A stretch of DNA of 64,000 nucleotides, from assembly GCA_037481875.1 (NCBI GenBank), contig JBBFKY010000002.1, positions 353,264-417,263 of the forward strand. Reading direction: 5' to 3'. The position numbers were made by a program, and so were the translations under genes. This stretch comes from Desulfosoma sp. (GTDB taxonomy: Bacteria; Desulfobacterota; Syntrophobacteria; Syntrophobacterales; DSM-9756). A model generated the notes under the pieces. That model did no database searches. It saw nothing but the letters and a program-made list of their open reading frames with translations, and had not been told where the DNA came from. Below, one piece after another: positions 31,051-50,991 of this stretch. Numbering within the stretch: the stretch's first letter is position 1; the number at the start of each line of letters is the position of its first letter.

Positions 31051-31644
31051 TCACGACACAAGCATGCCGTGAAGAAAGAGATCGGCGATTTCCTGGACAA
31101 CTTCTTCCAAAGACAACGGCCCCTCAGGGTTAAACCAAAAGTAGAGCCAGTGCAGGGAGCTGATGAGAGAAAAGGTCATGACGGTGGGGTTGATGCGCCG
31201 AACGATTCCCTGATCCATCAAAGACACGAGAAACGCCCGCAACTGATGCACATTTTCTTTTTCCTTATCCAGGATGATCCGCTTTTTGTCTTCCGGCAGA
31301 TATTCCATATCGTGAAACAGGATTTTGTTGAAGTTCTCGTTTTTAAGGTAGGTTTTTGAATATTCTATAAGGATATCGGTTAATTGTTCCTTCAAAGATT
31401 TGTCGGAAGCAACATTGCGGGCAATGGCTCGACGCATGTTTTCCACCAGCTCATCGGCGGCCTCCGTGCAAATACGAAAAAGAATCTCTTCCTTGTTTCG
31501 AAAATGATGGTACAAGGCGGCCTTACTGATGCCGACGCGAGCGGAAATTTGTCGAGTACTGGCCGCCTCGTAGCCTTTTTCGTAAAAAAGCTGGCGGGCG
31601 GCCTTGAGGATCTCGGCCGCCGTATCTTTCCTGTCTTCCTTCAC
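31051..31644 (-). CDS. TetR-family transcriptional repressor
   Basis: A 197-residue regulator starting from GTG with AGGAAAGG upstream. The N-terminal HTH is classic TetR: AAEILKAARQLFYEKGYEAASTRQISARVGISKAALYHHFRNKEEILF. The ligand-binding domain resembles the TetR_C (FadR/AcrR-type acyl-CoA responsive) group with WLYFWFNPEGPLSLEEV near the end. It is the last gene of the long minus-strand acyl-CoA series, 24 bp after the acyl-CoA dehydrogenase. The shared palindromes at 40796 and 50944 are plausible operators for it, with an acyl-CoA as inducer (inference). Confidence 0.92.
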   Translation of the reverse strand: MKEDRKDTAAEILKAARQLFYEKGYEAASTRQISARVGISKAALYHHFRNKEEILFRICTEAADELVENMRRAIARNVASDKSLKEQLTDILIEYSKTYLKNENFNKILFHDMEYLPEDKKRIILDKEKENVHQLRAFLVSLMDQGIVRRINPTVMTFSLISSLHWLYFWFNPEGPLSLEEVVQEIADLFLHGMLVS

Positions 31645-31668: not shown

Positions 31669-32820
31669 TTAACCTTTTGCGTATTCCTTGAGCACGATCT
31701 TGGCGATGGTCATTTTTTCCGCTTCTTTCGTGCCTTCGTAAATTTCCAGGATCTTAGCGTCCCGGTAAAAGCGCTGCACATCGTATTCATCAATATAGCC
31801 GTAACCGCCATGGAGCTGCAATGCCTTGTCCGCCACCCACACAGCGGTTTCACCGGCGTAATACTTGGCCATAGCGCTTAATTTCGGGTCGATTCGTCCC
31901 TGGTCCACCATCCAAGCTGCTTTGTAGGTCAGTTGTCGAGCCAGCTCGATGCGTGTGGCCATTTCAGCAAGCTGGAACTGAACCCCTTGAAAATTGGCCA
32001 AAGGCTGCCCAAAAGCCGTTCGTTCTTGCACGTACTGCGCGGCCTTGTCCAAAGCCCCTTGGGCAAGCCCTACCCCTTGGCCGGCCACCATGGCGCGCGT
32101 GGTGTTGAAAAAGTCCATGAGCTGATAGAAGCCGTTGCCTTCCTGCCCCACCAGGTTTTCCACGGGAACCTTCACATCTTCAAAGCTGATTTCCGCCGTG
32201 TCGCTGGCGCGAATACCCATCTTGCCGTGAATCTTATTGCGCGTGATGCCGGGAGACTTGGCATCCACAATGAGCAGGCTGAAGCGCTTGTGGCGTGGAG
32301 CGTCCGGATTTGTGACACAAAAGACGCAAAAATAATCGCAGACCGTTCCGTTGGTGATAAACATCTTTTGACCGTTCAAAATGTAGTGGTCTCCTTCACG
32401 AACGGCTCTGGTACGAATACCCGCCACATCTGTTCCCGCATTGGGTTCCGTATAAGCGCCGGCGAAAATAATCTCACCTGAAGCCAACTTGGGAAGATAG
32501 GTTTTCTTCTGTTCTTCGGAACCGTAAAGGTAGATGTTTTCCGACCCAAAACAAGCGGCGGTGATCAGGCCGATGCCCATATCGATGCGACTGAATTGTT
32601 CGGTGATAATCGTGTTGGCCAGAAACCCTGCCCCCGCACCCCCATATTCTTCTGGTATCCATGCCCCGATGAATCCATATTCGCAGGCTTTTTTCCAAAC
32701 TTCACGTGGAAACTTTTCTTCCCGGTCACATTCCTTGGATACCGGAGTAAATTCTCGAACGGCGAATTTGTAAGCTTCTTCCTTCAAGATTTTAAGTTCT
32801 TCAGGCAGATCGAAGTTCAT
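31669..32820 (-). CDS. Acyl-CoA dehydrogenase (MCAD/SCAD-type active site)
   Basis: FAD-dependent oxidation of an acyl-CoA to a trans-2-enoyl-CoA, passing electrons to ETF. From the ATG at 32820 (AGGAGGGGAAG) it has 383 residues. It shows AYTEPNAGTDVAGI, ILNGQKMFITNG, GKMGIRASDTAEISFEDV, RTAFGQPLANFQGVQ, ALQLHGGYGYIDEYDVQRFYRDAKI and, at the C-terminus, LEIYEGTKEAEKM. The Glu in IYEGT is the catalytic base at the MCAD/SCAD position. The frame from 32868 overlaps the previous gene and lacks a ribosome site. It sits 20 bp after the second dehydrogenase. Confidence 0.95.
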   Translation of the reverse strand: MNFDLPEELKILKEEAYKFAVREFTPVSKECDREEKFPREVWKKACEYGFIGAWIPEEYGGAGAGFLANTIITEQFSRIDMGIGLITAACFGSENIYLYGSEEQKKTYLPKLASGEIIFAGAYTEPNAGTDVAGIRTRAVREGDHYILNGQKMFITNGTVCDYFCVFCVTNPDAPRHKRFSLLIVDAKSPGITRNKIHGKMGIRASDTAEISFEDVKVPVENLVGQEGNGFYQLMDFFNTTRAMVAGQGVGLAQGALDKAAQYVQERTAFGQPLANFQGVQFQLAEMATRIELARQLTYKAAWMVDQGRIDPKLSAMAKYYAGETAVWVADKALQLHGGYGYIDEYDVQRFYRDAKILEIYEGTKEAEKMTIAKIVLKEYAKG

Positions 32821-32839
32821 CTTCCCCTCCTTTGGGTCC

Positions 32840-33982
32840 TCAAATGAGTTGCATGCGCTTGGCCACAATGAGTTTCATCACTTCGGTCGTTCCCGCAAAG
32901 ATCGGAATCGGCCGCACATCGCGATAAAATCGACTTATAGGATATTCTTCCATGTACCCGTATCCACCGTGGAGCTGGACACATCGGTAGGCCACTCGGT
33001 TGGCCATTTCCCCGATCCAGGCTTTTCCCATGGAGACGTCCGTCACGATATCCTTTCCGGCCATGTGGTCGGCGATGAGACGTTCCAAAAAGGTACGCCC
33101 AAGCTTCACTTCTGTGGCCATATCCACGATGGTGAAAGCGTTGTGCTGAAAGGACGCTATGGGACGTCCAAAGGCCTTGCGCCCTCGAGCGTATTCCACG
33201 GTCATGGCGAGCATGGCTTCCGCCATGGCCTGGCCCATAATGCAGGCCATAAGACGCTCCTGCTGCAGGTGATCCATCATGTGGTAAAAGCCGCGGTTGA
33301 GCGTTCCCAGAAGATTTTCCGCAGGCACGCGGCAATCGTCAAAGATGAGTTCCGCCGTATCCTGAGCGTGCAGACCCATTTTTTTGAGCTTTCGGCCTCG
33401 CTGAAAACCGGGGGCTTCACGTTCCACACAAATGAGGCTGATGCCTTTGGCACCGGAATCCACAGCTCCTGTACGGCACGCCACAATGACCAGGTCCGCC
33501 AGAATGCCATTGGAAATAAAGGTCTTCTGGCCGTTAATGACCCAATGATTCCCAACCTTTTCGGCTCGAGTGCGAATGGAGGCCAGATCGGATCCCGCAT
33601 CGGGTTCGGTCATGGCCACAGCCAAGACGATTTCTCCTTGAGCCGCCCCTGGAAGCCATCGTTTCTTTTGTTCTTGAGTACCTAGGGCGGCGATATAGGG
33701 AGCTACGATGTCACTGTGCAACGGCGCCATCAAACTTACGGCCCCCGCTTTGGCCAACTCCTCGGTGATAATCACCGAATAGAGAAAATCCGCTTCACTT
33801 CCACCGTATTCTTCGGGAAGCCACGGGCACAAAAATCCGGCCTTTCCCATGGCCCGCCACACATCCCGGGAAACCATGCCCTCCTCTTCCCAACGCTCTA
33901 TGTGCGGCGCCACTTCCCGTTCCACAAATCTTCGAAAGGATTCACGAAAGATGTGGTGCTCTTCGCGATACAGTCCCTCCAT
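32840..33982 (-). CDS. Acyl-CoA dehydrogenase (catalytic Glu at the IVD/LCAD position)
   Basis: A 380-residue flavoenzyme. AMTEPDAGSDLASIRT, VINGQKTFISNGILADLVIV, LKKMGLHAQDTAELIFDDC, GRKAFGRPIASFQHN and VQLHGGYGYMEEYPISRFYRDV are standard. At the C-terminus the usual YEGT is FAGT, so the Glu base is absent there. Instead LQQERLMACIMGQAMAEAML supplies a Glu where isovaleryl-CoA and long-chain dehydrogenases carry theirs. This suggests a branched or longer acyl substrate, different from that of the adjacent dehydrogenase. Confidence 0.94.
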   Translation of the reverse strand: MEGLYREEHHIFRESFRRFVEREVAPHIERWEEEGMVSRDVWRAMGKAGFLCPWLPEEYGGSEADFLYSVIITEELAKAGAVSLMAPLHSDIVAPYIAALGTQEQKKRWLPGAAQGEIVLAVAMTEPDAGSDLASIRTRAEKVGNHWVINGQKTFISNGILADLVIVACRTGAVDSGAKGISLICVEREAPGFQRGRKLKKMGLHAQDTAELIFDDCRVPAENLLGTLNRGFYHMMDHLQQERLMACIMGQAMAEAMLAMTVEYARGRKAFGRPIASFQHNAFTIVDMATEVKLGRTFLERLIADHMAGKDIVTDVSMGKAWIGEMANRVAYRCVQLHGGYGYMEEYPISRFYRDVRPIPIFAGTTEVMKLIVAKRMQLI

Positions 33983-34228: not shown

Positions 34229-35065
34229 TCAGCCCACTTCGGCCAGCGCATGGGAAAGAACCACGGCACGTTCCGTGGCCGCTTCAATCACATAGCGTCC
34301 ATCGCCCAGAGACCATCCACGTGTTGTGATGGTGTCTCCGGGATAAACCACGTCGGCGAACCGCACCTGAAAGGATTTGAAACGGGCCGGATCTCCGCTG
34401 CAGGCGCCTTCAAGGATCGCTCGAGTGGCAAAACCGAAAGTACATAGTCCATGGAGAATCGGTTTGGGAAAGCCGGCCGCTTCCGCAGCTTTAGGATCGA
34501 TATGCAAGGGATTCACATCCCCTGAAAGACGATAGATTGCCGCCTGGTTCGGCGAAGTTTTGTAGGAAATATCAAAGTCCGGACTCTTATCTTTCGGCAC
34601 CGCAATGGCCTCCGCCTTGGGCCCGGGATCGCCGCCCCAGCCACCAAGCCCACGACAGAAAAGGCTCATCCTCGTCTCACTGATCATCGTGCCTTCTTCG
34701 TCCTTGGTGAGCGTTTCCAGAACCACCAGGGCAGCCTTTTTCTTGTCATAGATGCCGCTCACCTTTACGGTACTTAGAAGCTTGCCCGAGGAAGGCAGAG
34801 GTCGGTGCAGCCGAATGGCTTCTTCACCGTGAAGGACTGTTTTGAGATCAATTTTCAGCCGATCCAAAACTTCAAAAAAAGGATGAAAAACAGGAATGAC
34901 CGCATAAGACGGGCAGACCTTGAGGCCTCCTGGAGTGCGTTCATACACATAGTCCAAATCCGATGCGCCAAAGCCGATGCCCAAATGGTAAAGAATGATA
35001 TTTCGCCAATGCATGGAATGTTCAAAAGGACCAAGGCTCAGCCCCACTTGACTGACATCAATCAT
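34229..35065 (-). CDS. MaoC-like (R)-specific enoyl-CoA hydratase
   Basis: A 278-residue double-hotdog protein like the hydratase-2 part of MFE-2. The N-terminal hotdog has MHWRNIILYHLGIGFGASDLDYVYE and PSYAVIPVFHPFFEV. The C-terminal hotdog carries the hydratase-2 motif YRLSGDVNPLHIDPKAAEAAGFPKPILHGLCTFGFA with the catalytic Asp and His. It would hydrate trans-2-enoyl-CoA to the (R)-3-hydroxyacyl-CoA, to be oxidised by the SDR encoded upstream. It is separated from both neighbours by 246-403 bp gaps but keeps the same strand as the rest of the series. Confidence 0.92.
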   Translation of the reverse strand: MIDVSQVGLSLGPFEHSMHWRNIILYHLGIGFGASDLDYVYERTPGGLKVCPSYAVIPVFHPFFEVLDRLKIDLKTVLHGEEAIRLHRPLPSSGKLLSTVKVSGIYDKKKAALVVLETLTKDEEGTMISETRMSLFCRGLGGWGGDPGPKAEAIAVPKDKSPDFDISYKTSPNQAAIYRLSGDVNPLHIDPKAAEAAGFPKPILHGLCTFGFATRAILEGACSGDPARFKSFQVRFADVVYPGDTITTRGWSLGDGRYVIEAATERAVVLSHALAEVG

Positions 35066-35468: not shown

Positions 35469-36293
35469 CTACCAGCCACCTGTCACCTTAATCACCTGCC
35501 CGGAGACATAGTCGGAAAGGGGTGAGGCCAGAAACAGCATGACTCGAGCGGCCTCTTCGGGAGTTCCCGGGCGCCCCAGAGGGATCATCATACGGAAAGC
35601 TTCCAGCTGGTTTTTGGGCACTCCGATGGCGATCTTTTTGCCATTTTTTTCCAGCACTGTATCTTCGGCCTTGGGTTGGGTGAGTCGTGTTTCAATCCAG
35701 CCATAGGCCACGGCGTTCACGTTCACATTGAGTCGTCCCCATTCCTTGGCCAAGGTTTTGGTGAAACCCAAAATCCCAGATTTGGCTGTGGAATAGTTGG
35801 CCTGACCGGCGTTGCCGTCCGTACCCGCAACCGAACTCACGTTGATGATCTTTCGCATGACCACACGGCCTTGTTCCGCTTCCCTTTTGGCGTTTTCTCG
35901 AATGTATGGCGCTGCGGCCCTCACAATGCGAAAAGGAGCCGTGCAATGCACCTTGAGCATGGCTTCCCACTGCTCATCGGTCATTTTATGGACCACGGCA
36001 TCCCAGGTATAGCCTGCATTGTTGACGATCACATGGATGTCCGGCCCAAAGGCATCCACAGCGGCCTGCACGAACTTTTCTGCAAAGCCGTCGGCGGTTA
36101 CATCACCGACGACGGCGACGGCTTGCCCACCTCGACTTTGAATTTCTCGAACCACTTCCTGAGCCGGCTCCGCATCCAGATCGCTCACGACCACTTTGGC
36201 TCCCTCCGACGCAAAAAGCAATGCCGCCGCTCGACCAATGCCACGGCCGGCTCCCGTAATCAAACACACTCTCCCTTCCAGCATTTTTTCCAT
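35469..36293 (-). CDS. Short-chain dehydrogenase/reductase (3-hydroxyacyl-CoA dehydrogenase/FabG-like)
   Basis: A 274-residue classical SDR. The Rossmann motif is LITGAGRGIGRAAALLF, VVVSDLD gives acidic cofactor selectivity suggesting NAD, and INVSSVAGTDGNAGQANYSTAKSGILGFTK contains the Ser-Tyr-Lys catalytic set. NVNAVAYGWIETRL and DYVSGQVIKVTGGW end the fold. ATG at 36293 has GCAGGAGGG upstream; the frame from 36371 overlaps the ligase region without a site. By context it oxidises the 3-hydroxyacyl-CoA made by the MaoC hydratase. Confidence 0.93.
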   Translation of the reverse strand: MEKMLEGRVCLITGAGRGIGRAAALLFASEGAKVVVSDLDAEPAQEVVREIQSRGGQAVAVVGDVTADGFAEKFVQAAVDAFGPDIHVIVNNAGYTWDAVVHKMTDEQWEAMLKVHCTAPFRIVRAAAPYIRENAKREAEQGRVVMRKIINVSSVAGTDGNAGQANYSTAKSGILGFTKTLAKEWGRLNVNVNAVAYGWIETRLTQPKAEDTVLEKNGKKIAIGVPKNQLEAFRMMIPLGRPGTPEEAARVMLFLASPLSDYVSGQVIKVTGGW

Positions 36294-36388
36294 GGATTCT
36301 CCCTCCTGCTTCCCTTCCAGTGTTCTCCATCCATGATCGCTCTTGGTTTGTTCGCTTTCGTCTTGCTCCATGGAATCGCGAAATCCGC

Positions 36389-38044
36389 TTACATGCCTAG
36401 TTTCTTTCGTATATCCTTGCGCAGCTCTTTCTTGAGGATTTTCCCTACGGGATTTCGAGGAATGGCCTCCACGACTTCCAGGTGTTCCGGCAGTTTGTAG
36501 GTGGCCACGCCTTGTTCTTTCATGTAGCGAGTCAGATCTTCCAGAGTGATCGTCTGTCCGGGTTTAGGGACCACGTAGACGCAGGTTCTTTCCCCAAGGT
36601 TCTCGTCGGGCATGCCGACCGCGGCCACGTCCTGAACGGCCGGGTGAGCCAAAAGAACATTTTCCACTTCCTGAGCGCTGATGTTGTAGCCTCCTCGAAT
36701 GATGATGTCCTTTGCCCGTTCAAAGAACTTCAGGTAACGATCGCCGGAAATTTGAAAGAGATCGCCTGTGCGAAAATAACCTTCGGTGTCAAAAGCGTGA
36801 GCATTGAGATCGGGTCGTTTGAAATATCCGGGAATCACGTTGGGACCCCGGTAGAGCAGCTCCCCAACGGCCCCGTTTTCTGTGAGTTCTGTCCCGTCGG
36901 GACCCACCACCTTGGTTTGGACGAATTTGGCCATAGGGGTCGCCCATTCGACGCCGGGGACTCCGTAACGCGGCAGGTGATCCACACGAACCGCCATGTC
37001 CGGCACTTCTTGCACTCCGGAAACCAACGCCGTGCCTTCGTTCTGGCCCCAGATGTTTCCAATGTCCACATTCCAGCGTCTCTTGAATTCTTCCATGGAC
37101 CACAAAGAAGGAGGAGCCGATCCCACGGTGATCACGCGCACCGAACTTAAACCCACTCCCTGAGCCGCAGGATGTTTCAAGATAAGATTCACCACGGCCG
37201 GCACCAAAAGTGTGTACTGAATTCGTTCCTGAACCATTTGTTTAAGCAAAAGCTGAGGATCAAAGGGATGGTGCAAGACCACGGTTCCGCCGAAACGTAG
37301 CCAGGGTACATAGACAGTGCCTATGGAAGCCATGTTGACCAAGGGACCGGCGGTGAGCATGATATCGCCGGGTTGCATGCCGCTTGCCAAAGCAATGGCT
37401 GCCTGACACCTCCAGTTGTTATGGCTCAAGGGGCATCCTTTGGGTTGAGCCTCCGTGCCTGAAGTCCAGCAGATGGTAAAAATGTCGTCGGCATCCACAC
37501 GAACAAGATTGAGGCTCGGATCCGGCTTTTCCTGAATCATCCGCCTTACGTCGTCATAGGTATAAACTTTTTTGAGGGTCGGAACCTTTTGGGCCACTTC
37601 TTCGGCCATGGCTCGATGCTCAAAACCGTGAAACTGTTCCACGGTGATGATGGCCTTGGCTTCCGTGAGTTCCGCCACGTAGGCGACTTCTTTGGAGCGC
37701 CACTGCATGGGCATGGGAGAAATAACACCACCCGCTCGAGCAATAGCCAGGTAAAGCATGGCCAGTTCCCAGCAATTGGGTAATTGCACCAACACAATAT
37801 CGTCTTTGTCGATACCTTCGGAGCGAAGGGCGGACGCCGTCGCCTCCACCGCTCGATCGAAGTCAGCGTATGGGATACGTTCGGGCCTTGTTCCCAGGAG
37901 CGCTTCTTTGTTCAGAGGATCGATGATGGCCGTTGCCTCCGGCATATCACGGGCATGCTGCTTGAAATCATCCAAAAGGGTTCGGCTGCCCCAACAACCT
38001 TTGCGGGTGTATTCCTTGATGCGTTCGGGTGAGGCGAGAATCAA
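36389..38044 (-). CDS. AMP-forming acyl-CoA ligase
   Basis: ANL-superfamily enzyme activating a carboxylate through an acyl-adenylate. It has ICWTSGTEAQPKGCPLSH (P-loop-like A3 motif), IGNIWGQNEGTALV (A5), YFRTGDLFQISGDRYLKFFERAKDIIIRGGYNIS (A7/A8) and the C-terminal catalytic Lys in RNPVGKILKKELRK. The best start is a TTG at 38044 preceded by AAAGGAG; the ATG at 38098 lies inside the end of the thiolase gene. That gives about 551 residues. The A3 motif has SGTEAQPKG instead of SGTTGxPKG, as in several 2,3-dihydroxybenzoate/aryl or cyclohexanecarboxylate-type ligases. The substrate is unknown. Confidence 0.92.
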   Translation of the reverse strand: MILASPERIKEYTRKGCWGSRTLLDDFKQHARDMPEATAIIDPLNKEALLGTRPERIPYADFDRAVEATASALRSEGIDKDDIVLVQLPNCWELAMLYLAIARAGGVISPMPMQWRSKEVAYVAELTEAKAIITVEQFHGFEHRAMAEEVAQKVPTLKKVYTYDDVRRMIQEKPDPSLNLVRVDADDIFTICWTSGTEAQPKGCPLSHNNWRCQAAIALASGMQPGDIMLTAGPLVNMASIGTVYVPWLRFGGTVVLHHPFDPQLLLKQMVQERIQYTLLVPAVVNLILKHPAAQGVGLSSVRVITVGSAPPSLWSMEEFKRRWNVDIGNIWGQNEGTALVSGVQEVPDMAVRVDHLPRYGVPGVEWATPMAKFVQTKVVGPDGTELTENGAVGELLYRGPNVIPGYFKRPDLNAHAFDTEGYFRTGDLFQISGDRYLKFFERAKDIIIRGGYNISAQEVENVLLAHPAVQDVAAVGMPDENLGERTCVYVVPKPGQTITLEDLTRYMKEQGVATYKLPEHLEVVEAIPRNPVGKILKKELRKDIRKKLGM

Positions 38045-38070
38045 GAGGCTCTCCTTTTTGACCAAGTGGT

Positions 38071-39267
38071 TTAAAGGCCGAAGATACCGACACTGCACAC
38101 ACTGAACGATGGAATACCGCCCAGGTTATGGGTGAGACCCAAGCGGGGATTCGCAATCTGGCGCGGGCCGGCCCGATGCAACAGCTGGTTGTAAACCTCA
38201 TAGATCATCCGTATGCCGGACGCTCCGATGGGATGCCCGAAACATTTGAGTCCTCCATCGGATTGGCACGGAATCTTTCCTTCCAGTTCAAAAAAGCCGT
38301 CGTTAATGTCCCGAATGGCACGACCTCGTTCGGAAATCTGCAGGTCTTCATAGGTGACCAGTTCGGTAATGGAAAAGCAGTCGTGCACTTCAAGGACGCT
38401 CAATTCCTCGCGAGGTCTCGTGATCCCGGCTTCCAGATACGCCCTTTTGGCCGCTTCGGTGGTGGTTTTAAGGTAGGTGCCGTCCCAGCGTGTCGTCAGC
38501 ATCTCTTCGCCGGAGGTGGCGGCGATTTGGAGCGCTTTGACGAGCACAGGGGTTTTTCCTAAACCACGGGCCACATCCGGCGTGGTCACAATGGCAGCGG
38601 CCGCTCCATCACTGACACCGCAGCAATCGAACAAGCCCAAAGGCCAGGCGATGATGGGGGCTTTGACCACCTGTTCCGGAGAAACCTCTTTACGCAGGTG
38701 TGCCTTGGGATTTAACGCCCCGCAACGATGACTCTTAGAGGAAATCCTTGCCAAGGCCATTTTGCCTTCTTCCGGCGAAATGCCGTACTTGGCGAAGTAG
38801 CGTGTGGCCATGAGCGCAAAGCCGCCGGGCGCCGTAAAGTTAGGAAGAATGAAACGGTTCAAAGTGCCCATGGCCGTGTCGAAGCCGGGAAGACCTCCGT
38901 ACCCCGTATCTTTCAGCTTTTCCACCCCAAGGGCCAAGGCGATGCGGCAGGCTCCCGAAGCCACAGCGTAGCAGGCTCCACGAAAGGCTTCAGTGCCCGT
39001 GGCGCAAAAGTTTTCTACACGGGTGACGGGAATGCTTGGAAGTTTCAGCGCCTGCGCCAAGGGAATGGCGCTTTTGCCCACATTCACCTCATCGAAACAG
39101 GTGCCCAGCCAAGCCGCTTCAATCTCCTTCTTCTCTATGCCCGCATCCTGCAACGCTTCCGAGAAGGCTTCCACCATGAGGTCTTCGGCTCCATCGTTCC
39201 AGCGTTCTCCGAACCGAGTGCACCCCATGCCGATAATCGCCACTTTGTCTTTGATTCCTGTCGCCAT
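38071..39267 (-). CDS. SCP2-type thiolase (acetyl-CoA acetyltransferase)
   Basis: A 398-residue thiolase of the SCP-x/archaeal type. The nucleophile is C88 in VENFCATGTEAFRGA. The other active-site blocks are LEVHDCFSITELVTYEDL (H295) and KCFGHPIGASGIRM (H345), and the C-terminus is LTHNLGGIPSFSVCSVGIFG. It lies between the HMG-CoA-synthase-like/DUF35 gene (15 bp upstream) and the ligase gene. Archaeal and Bbs-type thiolases need a DUF35 partner protein for activity, and the fused DUF35 domain next door is the obvious candidate. Confidence 0.93.
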   Translation of the reverse strand: MATGIKDKVAIIGMGCTRFGERWNDGAEDLMVEAFSEALQDAGIEKKEIEAAWLGTCFDEVNVGKSAIPLAQALKLPSIPVTRVENFCATGTEAFRGACYAVASGACRIALALGVEKLKDTGYGGLPGFDTAMGTLNRFILPNFTAPGGFALMATRYFAKYGISPEEGKMALARISSKSHRCGALNPKAHLRKEVSPEQVVKAPIIAWPLGLFDCCGVSDGAAAAIVTTPDVARGLGKTPVLVKALQIAATSGEEMLTTRWDGTYLKTTTEAAKRAYLEAGITRPREELSVLEVHDCFSITELVTYEDLQISERGRAIRDINDGFFELEGKIPCQSDGGLKCFGHPIGASGIRMIYEVYNQLLHRAGPRQIANPRLGLTHNLGGIPSFSVCSVGIFGL

Positions 39268-39282: not shown

Positions 39283-40743
39283 TTACTTACGCGCCGATGC
39301 CACAGGAACGGCCTTCCAGAAATAGGTGTGAAGGCCGCGCTGAGGGTCATGGTATTTGCGTCGAAGATGCAGTTCCACCGGCTGATCCACATGAAGGGAC
39401 TCCAAGGCGCAATCAGTGAAATCCAGCATCATGCGCCCTCCCCCTTCAAAGTCCACGATACCGTAGATCTGCGGCGGATCCAGGCAGAAAGCCAGGTTGT
39501 CTCCCGTGTAGCTGAAGATGCGACCGGGTTTATCGGAAAAAAGGTAAGGTTCCATCTCATCCACCGCCTGGCATTCTCCGATGGCACAGATGCGCTGGGG
39601 TGGAAACTGGGGCGTGCCGCACCGACGACACCGAGATCCCTCCAATCCCAAAATGGTCCGCCGATACCGCCACTGCACCGAGAGGGGTGTTTCCGCCTGA
39701 AATTCGCCTCGAAGCCCTGTTTCCACGGGGACCATTTCACGAAAGGCTAAAGCTTTTTCGTAAGAATCGAGCAGGGATCTGCGGGCCAAAAGGGATTCGA
39801 ATGTCCAGGCAGGTTTGAAAGAAGCGGCGGCTTCGGTGACCCGAAAGTGGAGCACATCCACGCCACTTCCGTATCCAACCACCAGGATGTGCTCTCCCGG
39901 GGAAGCCGATTCCAAAACGCGGCACAGCATGAGGAGGGGATGAGCCGTTCCAGTATCTCCCACCTGAGCCGCAAGAGAATCGGCCACCTTTTCGGCAGGA
40001 AGTCCCAGCTTGGCGGCAATCAAGCCGTGTTCCCTGGGATACGGGCAAGGGTAAATGACCGTAGAAAAAGCCTCTGGTGAGAGCTTTTCCCGAGCGAGAT
40101 AATCTTTGACGGCTCGAGGAATGAGCGACACATAGCCCTCGTCCCGAATCCAACGTTCTTCCCAGGATCGCGCTATTTTCTTCTCGTTTTCTCGAACCGG
40201 CCCTGGAAAATCGACACTTATGGATAAGGACCCCACCAGTTCGGCGAGAACACCATCGGATCCCATCAGGAGGGCCGCTGCACCGTCTCCGAAGAGGAAT
40301 TCTTCGGGACCGCCCATTTTGGCACGCCGTGCATCGGCCGCCACAGCCATCGCTCGCATCGAAGCCCCGCTCGCCACATGGGCGGCCGCTGCAAATACAG
40401 CCGATGTGCCGGCTCGGGTCGATCCCGTCACATCCAAAACGGTGGATGTTTCCGAGAGGCTTAAAGCCTCCCGTACAATGGCGGCGTTCTGACGTTCCGC
40501 GTAGGGGAATGTGGACGATGCGGCAAAAAGAGCGGTGCAGGCGGGATCGGGGTGAAACCGGCAGGCGTTTCGCGCCGCCGCAGCCGCCAATGTGATGGCG
40601 TCTTCGTCCGCACCCGCCACGGCCTTTTCCCCACCCCCTAGAGCCCATAGGCTGGGATTGATCCAGGCCATGGCTTTGGCGATCGTTTTCCTCTCCAAGC
40701 GATACCTGGGTAGAAACGCCCCGTAAGCAACAATGCCGACCAT
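39283..40743 (-). CDS. HMG-CoA-synthase-like protein fused to a DUF35 OB-fold/zinc domain
   Basis: A 486-residue fusion. Residues 1-305 follow archaeal HMG-CoA synthase (MVGIVAYGAFLPRYRLERKTI, AVAGADEDAITLAAAAA, VVGYGSGVDVLHFRV). The catalytic residues seem replaced: the Cys of EFACKAGT-like loops is Thr109 in DVTGSTRAGT, the Glu before the HPYA-type turn is Ser77 in ASSTFPYA, and the His-x-Pro position is Pro-Cys-Pro (about 232-234). Residues 365-480 are a DUF35 rubredoxin-like zinc site (C372, C375, C386, C391) plus OB fold. It heads the acyl-CoA operon, with the thiolase gene next. The likely role is an acyl-CoA-binding scaffold for the thiolase rather than an HMG-CoA synthase (inference). 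Confidence 0.85.
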   Translation of the reverse strand: MVGIVAYGAFLPRYRLERKTIAKAMAWINPSLWALGGGEKAVAGADEDAITLAAAAARNACRFHPDPACTALFAASSTFPYAERQNAAIVREALSLSETSTVLDVTGSTRAGTSAVFAAAAHVASGASMRAMAVAADARRAKMGGPEEFLFGDGAAALLMGSDGVLAELVGSLSISVDFPGPVRENEKKIARSWEERWIRDEGYVSLIPRAVKDYLAREKLSPEAFSTVIYPCPYPREHGLIAAKLGLPAEKVADSLAAQVGDTGTAHPLLMLCRVLESASPGEHILVVGYGSGVDVLHFRVTEAAASFKPAWTFESLLARRSLLDSYEKALAFREMVPVETGLRGEFQAETPLSVQWRYRRTILGLEGSRCRRCGTPQFPPQRICAIGECQAVDEMEPYLFSDKPGRIFSYTGDNLAFCLDPPQIYGIVDFEGGGRMMLDFTDCALESLHVDQPVELHLRRKYHDPQRGLHTYFWKAVPVASARK

Positions 40744-40795
40744 GAAAACCTCCTCCTTGGTTTCGAGTGCAAGAAACCCTTTTGGGCCACGTTCT

Positions 40796-40842
40796 AACCG
40801 AGCGCTCGTTCAGTTCCTGACAGACATGAAGGTGGATGTCAA
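40796..40842 (-). promoter_or_regulatory. Promoter/operator of the long acyl-CoA operon
   Basis: On the minus strand, TTGACA (40842-40837) is followed after 17 bases by CAGGAA (40819-40814). Then comes the imperfect palindrome AACGAGCGCTCGGTT (40810-40796), about 53 bp before the fusion gene. The same layout, TTGACG-17-CATGGA-palindrome, occurs at 50991-50944 before another acyl-CoA operon. The -10 is poor in both. A TetR-type repressor site overlapping the start of transcription is the natural reading. Confidence 0.6.
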
Positions 40843-42184: not shown

Positions 42185-42928
42185 TTACCCCAAAAAGCGC
42201 AACGTCCCCATGAGCGCCGCCATGAGCCCGAAACCCAAGCCAATGGTCCATTGAAGCTGGGAAAACCGCTTGTCCATGGCCTGAAAGCGAGCGCTGGTTT
42301 CACGTTGCAGCGCCTCAAAACGAGCGTTGGTTTCACGTTGTAGAGCTTCAAAACGAGCATTGGTTTCACGTTGCAGCGTTTCAAAACGAGCGCTGATTTC
42401 ACGCTGCAGAGCTTCAAAGCGCTTATCAACAACCTCAAAGAGGGTCGCGATTTCCCGCTGAACTGCCTCAAAACGCTTATCCATAGCTTCAAAGCGCTTA
42501 TCAACAGCCTCAAAGCGGGTGGCGATTTCCCGCTGAAGTGCCTCAAAGCGCTTATCCATGGCTTCAAAACGCTTCTCCATGGCTTCAAAACGCTTCTCCA
42601 TGGCTTCAAATCGCTTATCAACAGCTTCAAACCGGGCGATCATTTCCCGCTGCAGCGACTCAAAGCGCTTTTCCATCGCTTCAAAACGCTTTTCTGAAGC
42701 GTGAAAATGAGCAATTTGAATTTCCCTGAAGGCTCGCAGCTCTTCCTCGACCCGAACCACCCTTTCCATCAGGGAAAGTTCCCGGGCGCGCTGTTCGTTT
42801 TCTTTCACAAACGCTGCGAGTTTTTCCGAGAAAAGTTCATCTACCTTTTCTCGAAAAAGCTGTTCCACACTCTGCGCGATCCAATCCTTCACTTCCCTTT
42901 CGCTCAGAGACGATCCGGGGAGGCTCAT
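42185..42928 (-). CDS. Tail-anchored coiled-coil protein with seven-residue repeats
   Basis: A 247-residue protein. Residues 1-75 form a charged N-terminal region (REVKDWIAQSVEQLFREKVDELF). Residues about 78-222 are an almost perfect heptad series of the form EAMEKRF, EAVDKRF, EALQREI and EALQRET, predicted to form a long parallel coiled coil. The C-terminus is a single membrane helix (IGLGFGLMAALMGTLRFL). The DNA shows matching 21-bp-type repetition, so heptad number may vary by slippage. It resembles the tail-anchored coiled-coil proteins common in Desulfobacterota and cyanobacteria; no function is known. It is flanked on both sides by the GTAGGGCGGAT hairpin repeats. Confidence 0.75.
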   Translation of the reverse strand: MSLPGSSLSEREVKDWIAQSVEQLFREKVDELFSEKLAAFVKENEQRARELSLMERVVRVEEELRAFREIQIAHFHASEKRFEAMEKRFESLQREMIARFEAVDKRFEAMEKRFEAMEKRFEAMDKRFEALQREIATRFEAVDKRFEAMDKRFEAVQREIATLFEVVDKRFEALQREISARFETLQRETNARFEALQRETNARFEALQRETSARFQAMDKRFSQLQWTIGLGFGLMAALMGTLRFLG

Positions 42929-50793: not shown

Positions 50794-50943
50794 GAGCGCA
50801 CCTCCGACGTTTTCAAGGCGGGTTTTTCAGGGGGTTTTAACCGACACATTCTTTCACCGACTCTTGCGATCCTCACCTCCTTTGGGCCGTTTTCTTTCGG
50901 CAAACCACTGTACGTGTCTTTCGTCTCAATCTTTCTTTTCGCT

Positions 50944-50991
50944 AACTGAGCGCTCGTTCGGTTCCATGCCCCAAAAGTCTAAGGGCGTCAA
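50944..50991 (-). promoter_or_regulatory. Promoter/operator of the second acyl-CoA operon
   Basis: On the minus strand, TTGACG (50991-50986), 17 bases, CATGGA (50968-50963), then AACGAGCGCTCAGTT (50958-50944). Position by position this matches the site at 40842-40796, including spacing. It lies about 150 bp upstream of the ligase start. Confidence 0.6.

Follow-up and report, generated by a model that had tools for sequence, protein, structure and literature searches.

PhlABC is a known complex of DAPG-making Pseudomonas. In PhlACB, the PhlA subunit lacks the key Cys and Glu, the DUF35 protein PhlB ties PhlA to PhlC, and only residues of PhlC act; active enzyme was obtained solely from the whole operon (PMC6392133). 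OB-domain beta subunits are likewise indispensable in haloarchaeal ketothiolases, according to a review (PMC7137286). In Desulfotomaculum arcticum, the DUF35 protein 04021, seen in cells grown on acetone and isopropanol, adjoins the acetyl-CoA acetyltransferase 04022 (PMC8084838). As a possible relative of the gene pair described below, 04021/04022 is a lead only.

The window, a stretch of 64,000 nucleotides from Desulfosoma sp., contains a gene that joins an HMG-CoA-synthase-like (HMGS-like) part to DUF35 in one chain. The uninterrupted frame (39283..40743) encodes 486 aa on the minus strand, as do all features located below with two dots, and the first-pass annotation had given the same frame, strand, and length. 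A Shine-Dalgarno-like AAGGAGGAGG lies ahead of its start (40749..40758). Residues 1-330 form the HMGS-like pseudoenzyme domain (39754..40743), recognized from the model against chain I of PDB 6ESQ and by PRK04262 (205 bits), and residues 355-482 form the DUF35 domain, a rubredoxin-like zinc ribbon with an OB fold (39298..39681). Pfam finds the C-terminal half of the KAS-III/HMGS fold and both DUF35 parts, the latter over their gathering scores (PF12172 23.5, cut-off 23.2; PF01796 36.3, cut-off 27.1). An AlphaFold2 model built with 47 family sequences reached a mean pLDDT of 89.7 and a pTM of 0.92. Apart from the domain linker, its weakest stretch, at about residues 181-190, is in the HMGS-like domain. 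Directly after this loop stands the motif WEERWIRD (residues 194-201, 40141..40164), in which W194, E195, E196, R197, W198, and D201 (6 of 8 residues) are invariant in alignment A1. The motif or the preceding loop may serve as an interface or a lid. In databases, such fusion proteins go by the names HMG-CoA synthase, 3-oxoacyl-ACP synthase III or OB-fold protein; the thiolase that accompanies them is labelled acetyl-CoA acetyltransferase. A pseudogene is ruled out by the intact frame, the conservation over phyla, and the reciprocal linkage with the thiolase.

The archaeal HMG-CoA synthase of 6ESQ, with E82, C114, and the catalytic His, was taken as the reference for the catalytic triad. In the alignment with this enzyme, Ser77 (40513..40515) takes the place of the catalytic Glu, Thr109 (40417..40419) that of the nucleophilic Cys, and Pro232 (40048..40050) that of the catalytic His, which bears out the assignment of Ser77, Thr109, and a Pro-Cys-Pro near 232 proposed at first by eye. 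The register was also upheld by structure. VIA-align placed residues 1-339 of the model on 6ESQ-I (Z 47.0, rmsd 1.7 A, 334 aligned) and gave Z values of 44-45 with the PhlA chains, in agreement with Foldseek; because the model superposes on both 6ESQ-I and PhlA, the register has the support of structure as well as sequence. Among 141 distinct fused relatives, which were collected by similarity to this triad-less query, position 109 is never Cys, position 232 never His, and position 77 never Glu (but Asp in one). The check on conservation suggested for Thr109 and Ser77 thus had a divided outcome, since the residues themselves are not conserved (100 of the 141 have Leu or Gln at 109, and 128 have Thr at 77) but the absence of the triad is. 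An independent search, in which the archaeal HMGS model was run against 59 genomes of the phylum, likewise gave none over the cut-off; the long fused matches that were examined lack the triad. Separate MvaS proteins retain E/C/H. The Desulfosoma fusion itself scores below the HMG-CoA synthase cut-offs (PRK04262/NF003274, 205 vs 244 bits; TIGR00748, 148 vs 353 bits). HMG-CoA reductase (PF00368) was not found in the Desulfosoma genome and was present in five control genomes. An active HMG-CoA synthase is ruled out by the lost triad, the low scores, and the reductase-free genome, and the fusion almost certainly lacks this activity.

The DUF35 part has kept its metal site. The four zinc-ligand cysteines, 372, 375, 386, and 391 (39571..39630), are near-invariant and all present in 135 of the 141 relatives, as expected from the first reading of the sequence. 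The only sequence match of this domain to a solved structure is 6ESQ-E (5e-13). A homologue on a Sphingomonas plasmid (locus L130, 6001-7446) has C/T/S/D at the four positions and is, judged by these residues, a DUF35 protein without a zinc site.

The SCP2-type thiolase is encoded 3' of the fusion (38071..39267; 398 aa; PRK06157/NF004810, 636 bits). Its Cys88 (39004..39006), its HDCF motif (295-298, 38374..38385), and His345 of a GHP (38233..38235) are each invariant in 95 of 95 homologues, confirming that C88, H295, and H345 are intact. HDCF is the motif of SCP2 thiolases; steroid aldolases are marked by YDHF/YDCY (PMC12329534). A gene for a similar thiolase lies 3' of the fusion on the same strand in 97 of 99 loci. 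The 59 genomes contain 40 thiolases that score above the NF004810 cut-off, and every one of them has a same-strand fusion at a distance of up to 3.5 kb (up to 360 bases in 37 cases), so that this thiolase never occurs without the fusion in the sample. Conversely, 44 of 47 fusions adjoin a thiolase; each of the remaining three is truncated by a contig end or situated at one. When relatives are compared two by two, the identities for the HMGS-like part, for DUF35, and for the thiolase correlate (0.76-0.85), although shared ancestry alone could produce such values.

We consider, with a probability of about 0.76, that the fusion serves an SCP2-type 3-ketoacyl-CoA thiolase as an obligate subunit that is itself non-catalytic. 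The HMGS-like part would be a pseudoenzyme paired with the thiolase as PhlA is with PhlC, and DUF35, joined to it in one chain, would staple the two together as PhlB does. Cys88, HDCF, and His345 of the thiolase would then perform all C-C chemistry, cleaving 3-ketoacyl-CoA to acetyl-CoA and a shortened acyl-CoA, and the HMGS-like domain could supply one wall of a composite CoA/acyl site as well as fix the assembly. The physical complex, acyl-CoA binding and channelling, this role at the CoA site, the direction of the reaction, and its substrate are what we infer for the pair. By sequence, each component has a counterpart in one and the same solved complex: the thiolase in 6ESQ-A (5e-52), DUF35 in 6ESQ-E (5e-13), and the HMGS-like part in 6ESQ-I (1e-26). 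The frames of fusion and thiolase are in register and separated by one TAA, so a read-through chain could be modelled. This tethered single-chain model of 890 residues, built with paired and unpaired homologues, gave a pLDDT of 85.6 and a pTM of 0.75, against the 0.5-0.6 that we estimate for two independent bodies, and docking is thus weakly favoured. The loop at about 181-190 is still poorly ordered in it. The initial proposal of a pseudoenzyme scaffold for the adjacent SCP2-type thiolase gains from the reciprocal linkage and the operon; its restriction to bacteria fails, since fused, triad-less homologues also lie beside thiolases on haloarchaeal plasmids.

Downstream of the pair are genes for an AMP-forming acyl-CoA ligase (36389..38098), a FabG-like SDR dehydrogenase (35469..36371), a MaoC/MFE-2 hydratase-2-like (R)-hydratase (34229..35065), two acyl-CoA dehydrogenases (32840..33982 and 31669..32868), and a TetR regulator (31051..31644). 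From their predicted functions, they are a full (R)-type beta-oxidation set. The operon would break down a carboxylic acid through CoA ligase, acyl-CoA dehydrogenase, (R)-hydratase, and SDR, followed by the thiolase with the fusion, under TetR control; it is the gene content that points to a degradative direction. The view that the pair acts in degradation and not in mevalonate synthesis is borne out by this operon and the reductase-free genome. A TetR-type palindrome, CTGAACGAGCGCTCGGTTAG, lies about 50 bases ahead of the fusion start (40794..40813) and is kept in close relatives. The 3.4-Mb genome has exactly two copies of it, and the second (50942..50961) precedes genes for a ligase (50793-49129), an enoyl-CoA hydratase (49058-48279), and another ligase (47993-46335). 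The TetR protein is the presumed binder of CTGAACGAGCGCTCGGTTAG, and the two operons are likely to form a two-operon regulon. Three imperfect operator-like palindromes were also seen at 42285-42399 within a coiled-coil ORF (42185-42928) and may be mere coding repeats.

Gene order and fusions in other genomes connect the family with the same pathway. Many Bacillota loci have the order SDR-MaoC-fusion-thiolase, and in Desulfobacteraceae (loci L054, L056, L058, L063, L074) fusions of about 910 aa hold HMGS-like, DUF35, SDR, and SCP2 domains in one chain, as determined by a Pfam run on L056 for the SDR-SCP2 extension. This extension ties the fusion to the step before thiolysis. At L054, the extended fusion is adjoined by a MaoC-SDR-SCP2 protein. 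The MaoC-SDR-SCP2 domain set is that of peroxisomal multifunctional enzyme type 2 (MFE-2). In ten Actinomycetota-type loci (L007, L013, L015, L017, L018, L020, L026, L035, L044, L045; Pfam on the L015 copy), a B12-binding radical SAM protein is encoded just upstream of the fusion gene.

Other roles can be proposed for the same set of domains. An acyltransferase moving the acyl group to a non-CoA acceptor, as PhlACB and CsATase do, is suggested by the three-part composition and by the PhlA chains being the nearest solved sequence relatives of the HMGS-like part. This reading is quite unlikely, because the thiolase has the HDCF and GHP of SCP2 thiolases in 95 of 95 homologues, with YD-M at that place in a MucC/PhlC-like Priestia protein, because its match to PhlC is weak (2e-18 to 2e-20) and much poorer than those to 6ESQ-A, SCP2 thiolase, and BbsB, and because the operon has the complete set for beta-oxidation and no polyketide genes. 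The motifs argue for thiolysis over CoA-independent acyl transfer by the Desulfosoma pair. The thiolase motifs bear also on a retro-aldolase complex. In Ltp2-ChsH2 and Sal-Shy, too, DUF35 is the partner of an enzyme with the SCP2-thiolase fold, but their hallmarks are YDHF/YDCY and, in Sal, the absence of the nucleophilic Cys (PMC12329534), whereas Cys88 and HDCF are intact here and an SDR is present to make ketoacyl-CoA. A retro-aldolase is extremely improbable and was rejected on HDCF in place of YDHF/YDCY.

The direction and the site of the chemistry could also differ from those assumed for the thiolase subunit. Thiolases are reversible and haloarchaeal two-subunit ketothiolases run synthetically (PMC7137286), so that acetyl-CoA might be joined to acyl-CoA with SDR and MaoC working in reverse; this condensing use is very unlikely with two acyl-CoA dehydrogenases and CoA ligases in the operon, and with ligase, enoyl-CoA hydratase, and ligase in the second TetR-operator unit, all of which point to acid degradation. 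It is unlikely, too, that the HMGS-like domain has gained a new active site from Cys233, His268 and/or Thr77, e.g., for thioester hydrolysis or transacylation. Cys233 (40045..40047) is found in 102 and His268 in 94 of the 141 relatives, both being conserved in the near family, Thr predominates at 77 as given above, and the near-invariant WEERWIRD indicates that the domain is under strong constraint. However, Cys233 is placed one residue past the His position, and both Cys233 and His268 are missing from outlying clades (L102-L109, L130-L133, haloarchaea) whose genes are paired in the same way. A replacement Cys/His in the same pocket is therefore ruled out for the family as a whole, and the non-catalytic thiolase subunit remains the preferred reading.

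Related loci are spread over Desulfobacterota, Actinomycetota, Bacillota, Nitrospirota, Chloroflexota, Spirochaetota, Myxococcota, and Alphaproteobacteria, as well as plasmids of Sphingomonas, Azoarcus, Novosphingobium, and Rhodococcus. The haloarchaeal plasmid homologues contradict the earlier idea of a purely bacterial variation. In Haloferax mediterranei (locus L140, 4986-6416), a fused HMGS-like/DUF35 gene lies beside a thiolase and phenylacetate (paa) genes, which makes this species a convenient host for experiments on the family. On a Priestia megaterium plasmid (locus L135, 4992-7770), separate genes for a triad-less HMGS-like protein, a thiolase-fold protein, and a zinc-ribbon protein stand beside NRPS genes and are probably a MucABC-like acyltransferase set. 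VceA/VceB of Sphingobium are described as a VAA-converting enzyme and a thioesterase, and no tie to the fusion family was found. In a tree with FabH as the root, the main clade of fusions (46 rows, 99/90) was apart from a group with PhlA-type proteins and intact synthases, near which a few fused or triad-less rows were found (L101, L103, L114, haloarchaea). The intact synthases were nested inside triad-less rows, and one single triad-less clade was not rejected by a topology test (p-AU 0.19). It is rather doubtful that the family is an old cross-domain class of ketothiolase subunits whose HMGS-like pocket was kept for ligand sensing or for a chemistry of its own with Thr77, Cys233, His268, and WEERWIRD; on this reading, catalytic HMG-CoA synthase may even have arisen among such triad-less subunits.

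An inert HMGS-like subunit is not new in kind, because PhlACB has been published and fused relatives exist in haloarchaea. What is new is the fused, reciprocally linked, cross-domain, and apparently degradative class with its regulon. No paper on the fused class, the PRK06157 pairing, the degradative operons or the SDR-SCP2 extension was found in mostly non-subscription literature, which is weak evidence of novelty. If the pair were recognized as a single thiolase of several subunits, annotations in a number of bacterial phyla and in haloarchaea could be corrected, and false mevalonate-synthase calls would cease. The pair also offers a simple test of why a thiolase retains an attached dead synthase, and relatives in which the chain continues directly into SDR and SCP2 allow a test of whether substrate is handed over in (R)-beta-oxidation.

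Among the known systems, PhlACB/PpATase and CsATase (Pseudomonas, Chromobacterium; PDB 5M3K, 9SKH) also have an HMGS-like subunit without catalytic Cys/Glu, a DUF35 with a Cys4 zinc site, and an active thiolase-fold subunit with Cys88. The Desulfosoma genes have the corresponding HMGS fold without Cys and Glu, a fused DUF35, and an adjacent thiolase-fold partner; they differ in the union of HMGS-like part and DUF35 in one chain, in the SCP2-thiolase motifs, and in an operon for beta-oxidation and not polyketide acylation. MucABC of Streptococcus macacae (PDB 9VBO), known by its PDB title as a multi-component acyltransferase complex, has C/E/Q for E/C/H in its HMGS-like member and looks like a further complex with an inert subunit, although its subunits are separate, unlike the fusion. 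In BbsAB, the benzoylsuccinyl-CoA thiolase (PDB 7PXP), the thiolase is related to that of Desulfosoma (1e-42), whose NF053628 score is far under the cut-off (157 vs 750 bits). BbsAB is degradative and has a zinc-finger DUF35 subunit; we know of no HMGS-like domain in it. The haloarchaeal ketothiolases BktB/PhaA combine a thiolase with an OB-domain beta subunit (PMC7137286). By gene order, BktB-beta is probably a 120-aa open frame and thus unfused, so Haloferax BktB-beta was rejected as a characterised fused member; a fused homologue does occur on the BktB plasmid, where paa genes adjoin it. The archaeal thiolase/DUF35/HMGCS complex (6ESQ) has the same three folds, each component matching its own chain by sequence. 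Its HMGCS has an intact catalytic triad, and DUF35 is a separate chain, whereas in Desulfosoma the triad is lost, the HMGS-like part and DUF35 are fused, and the genome is without HMG-CoA reductase.
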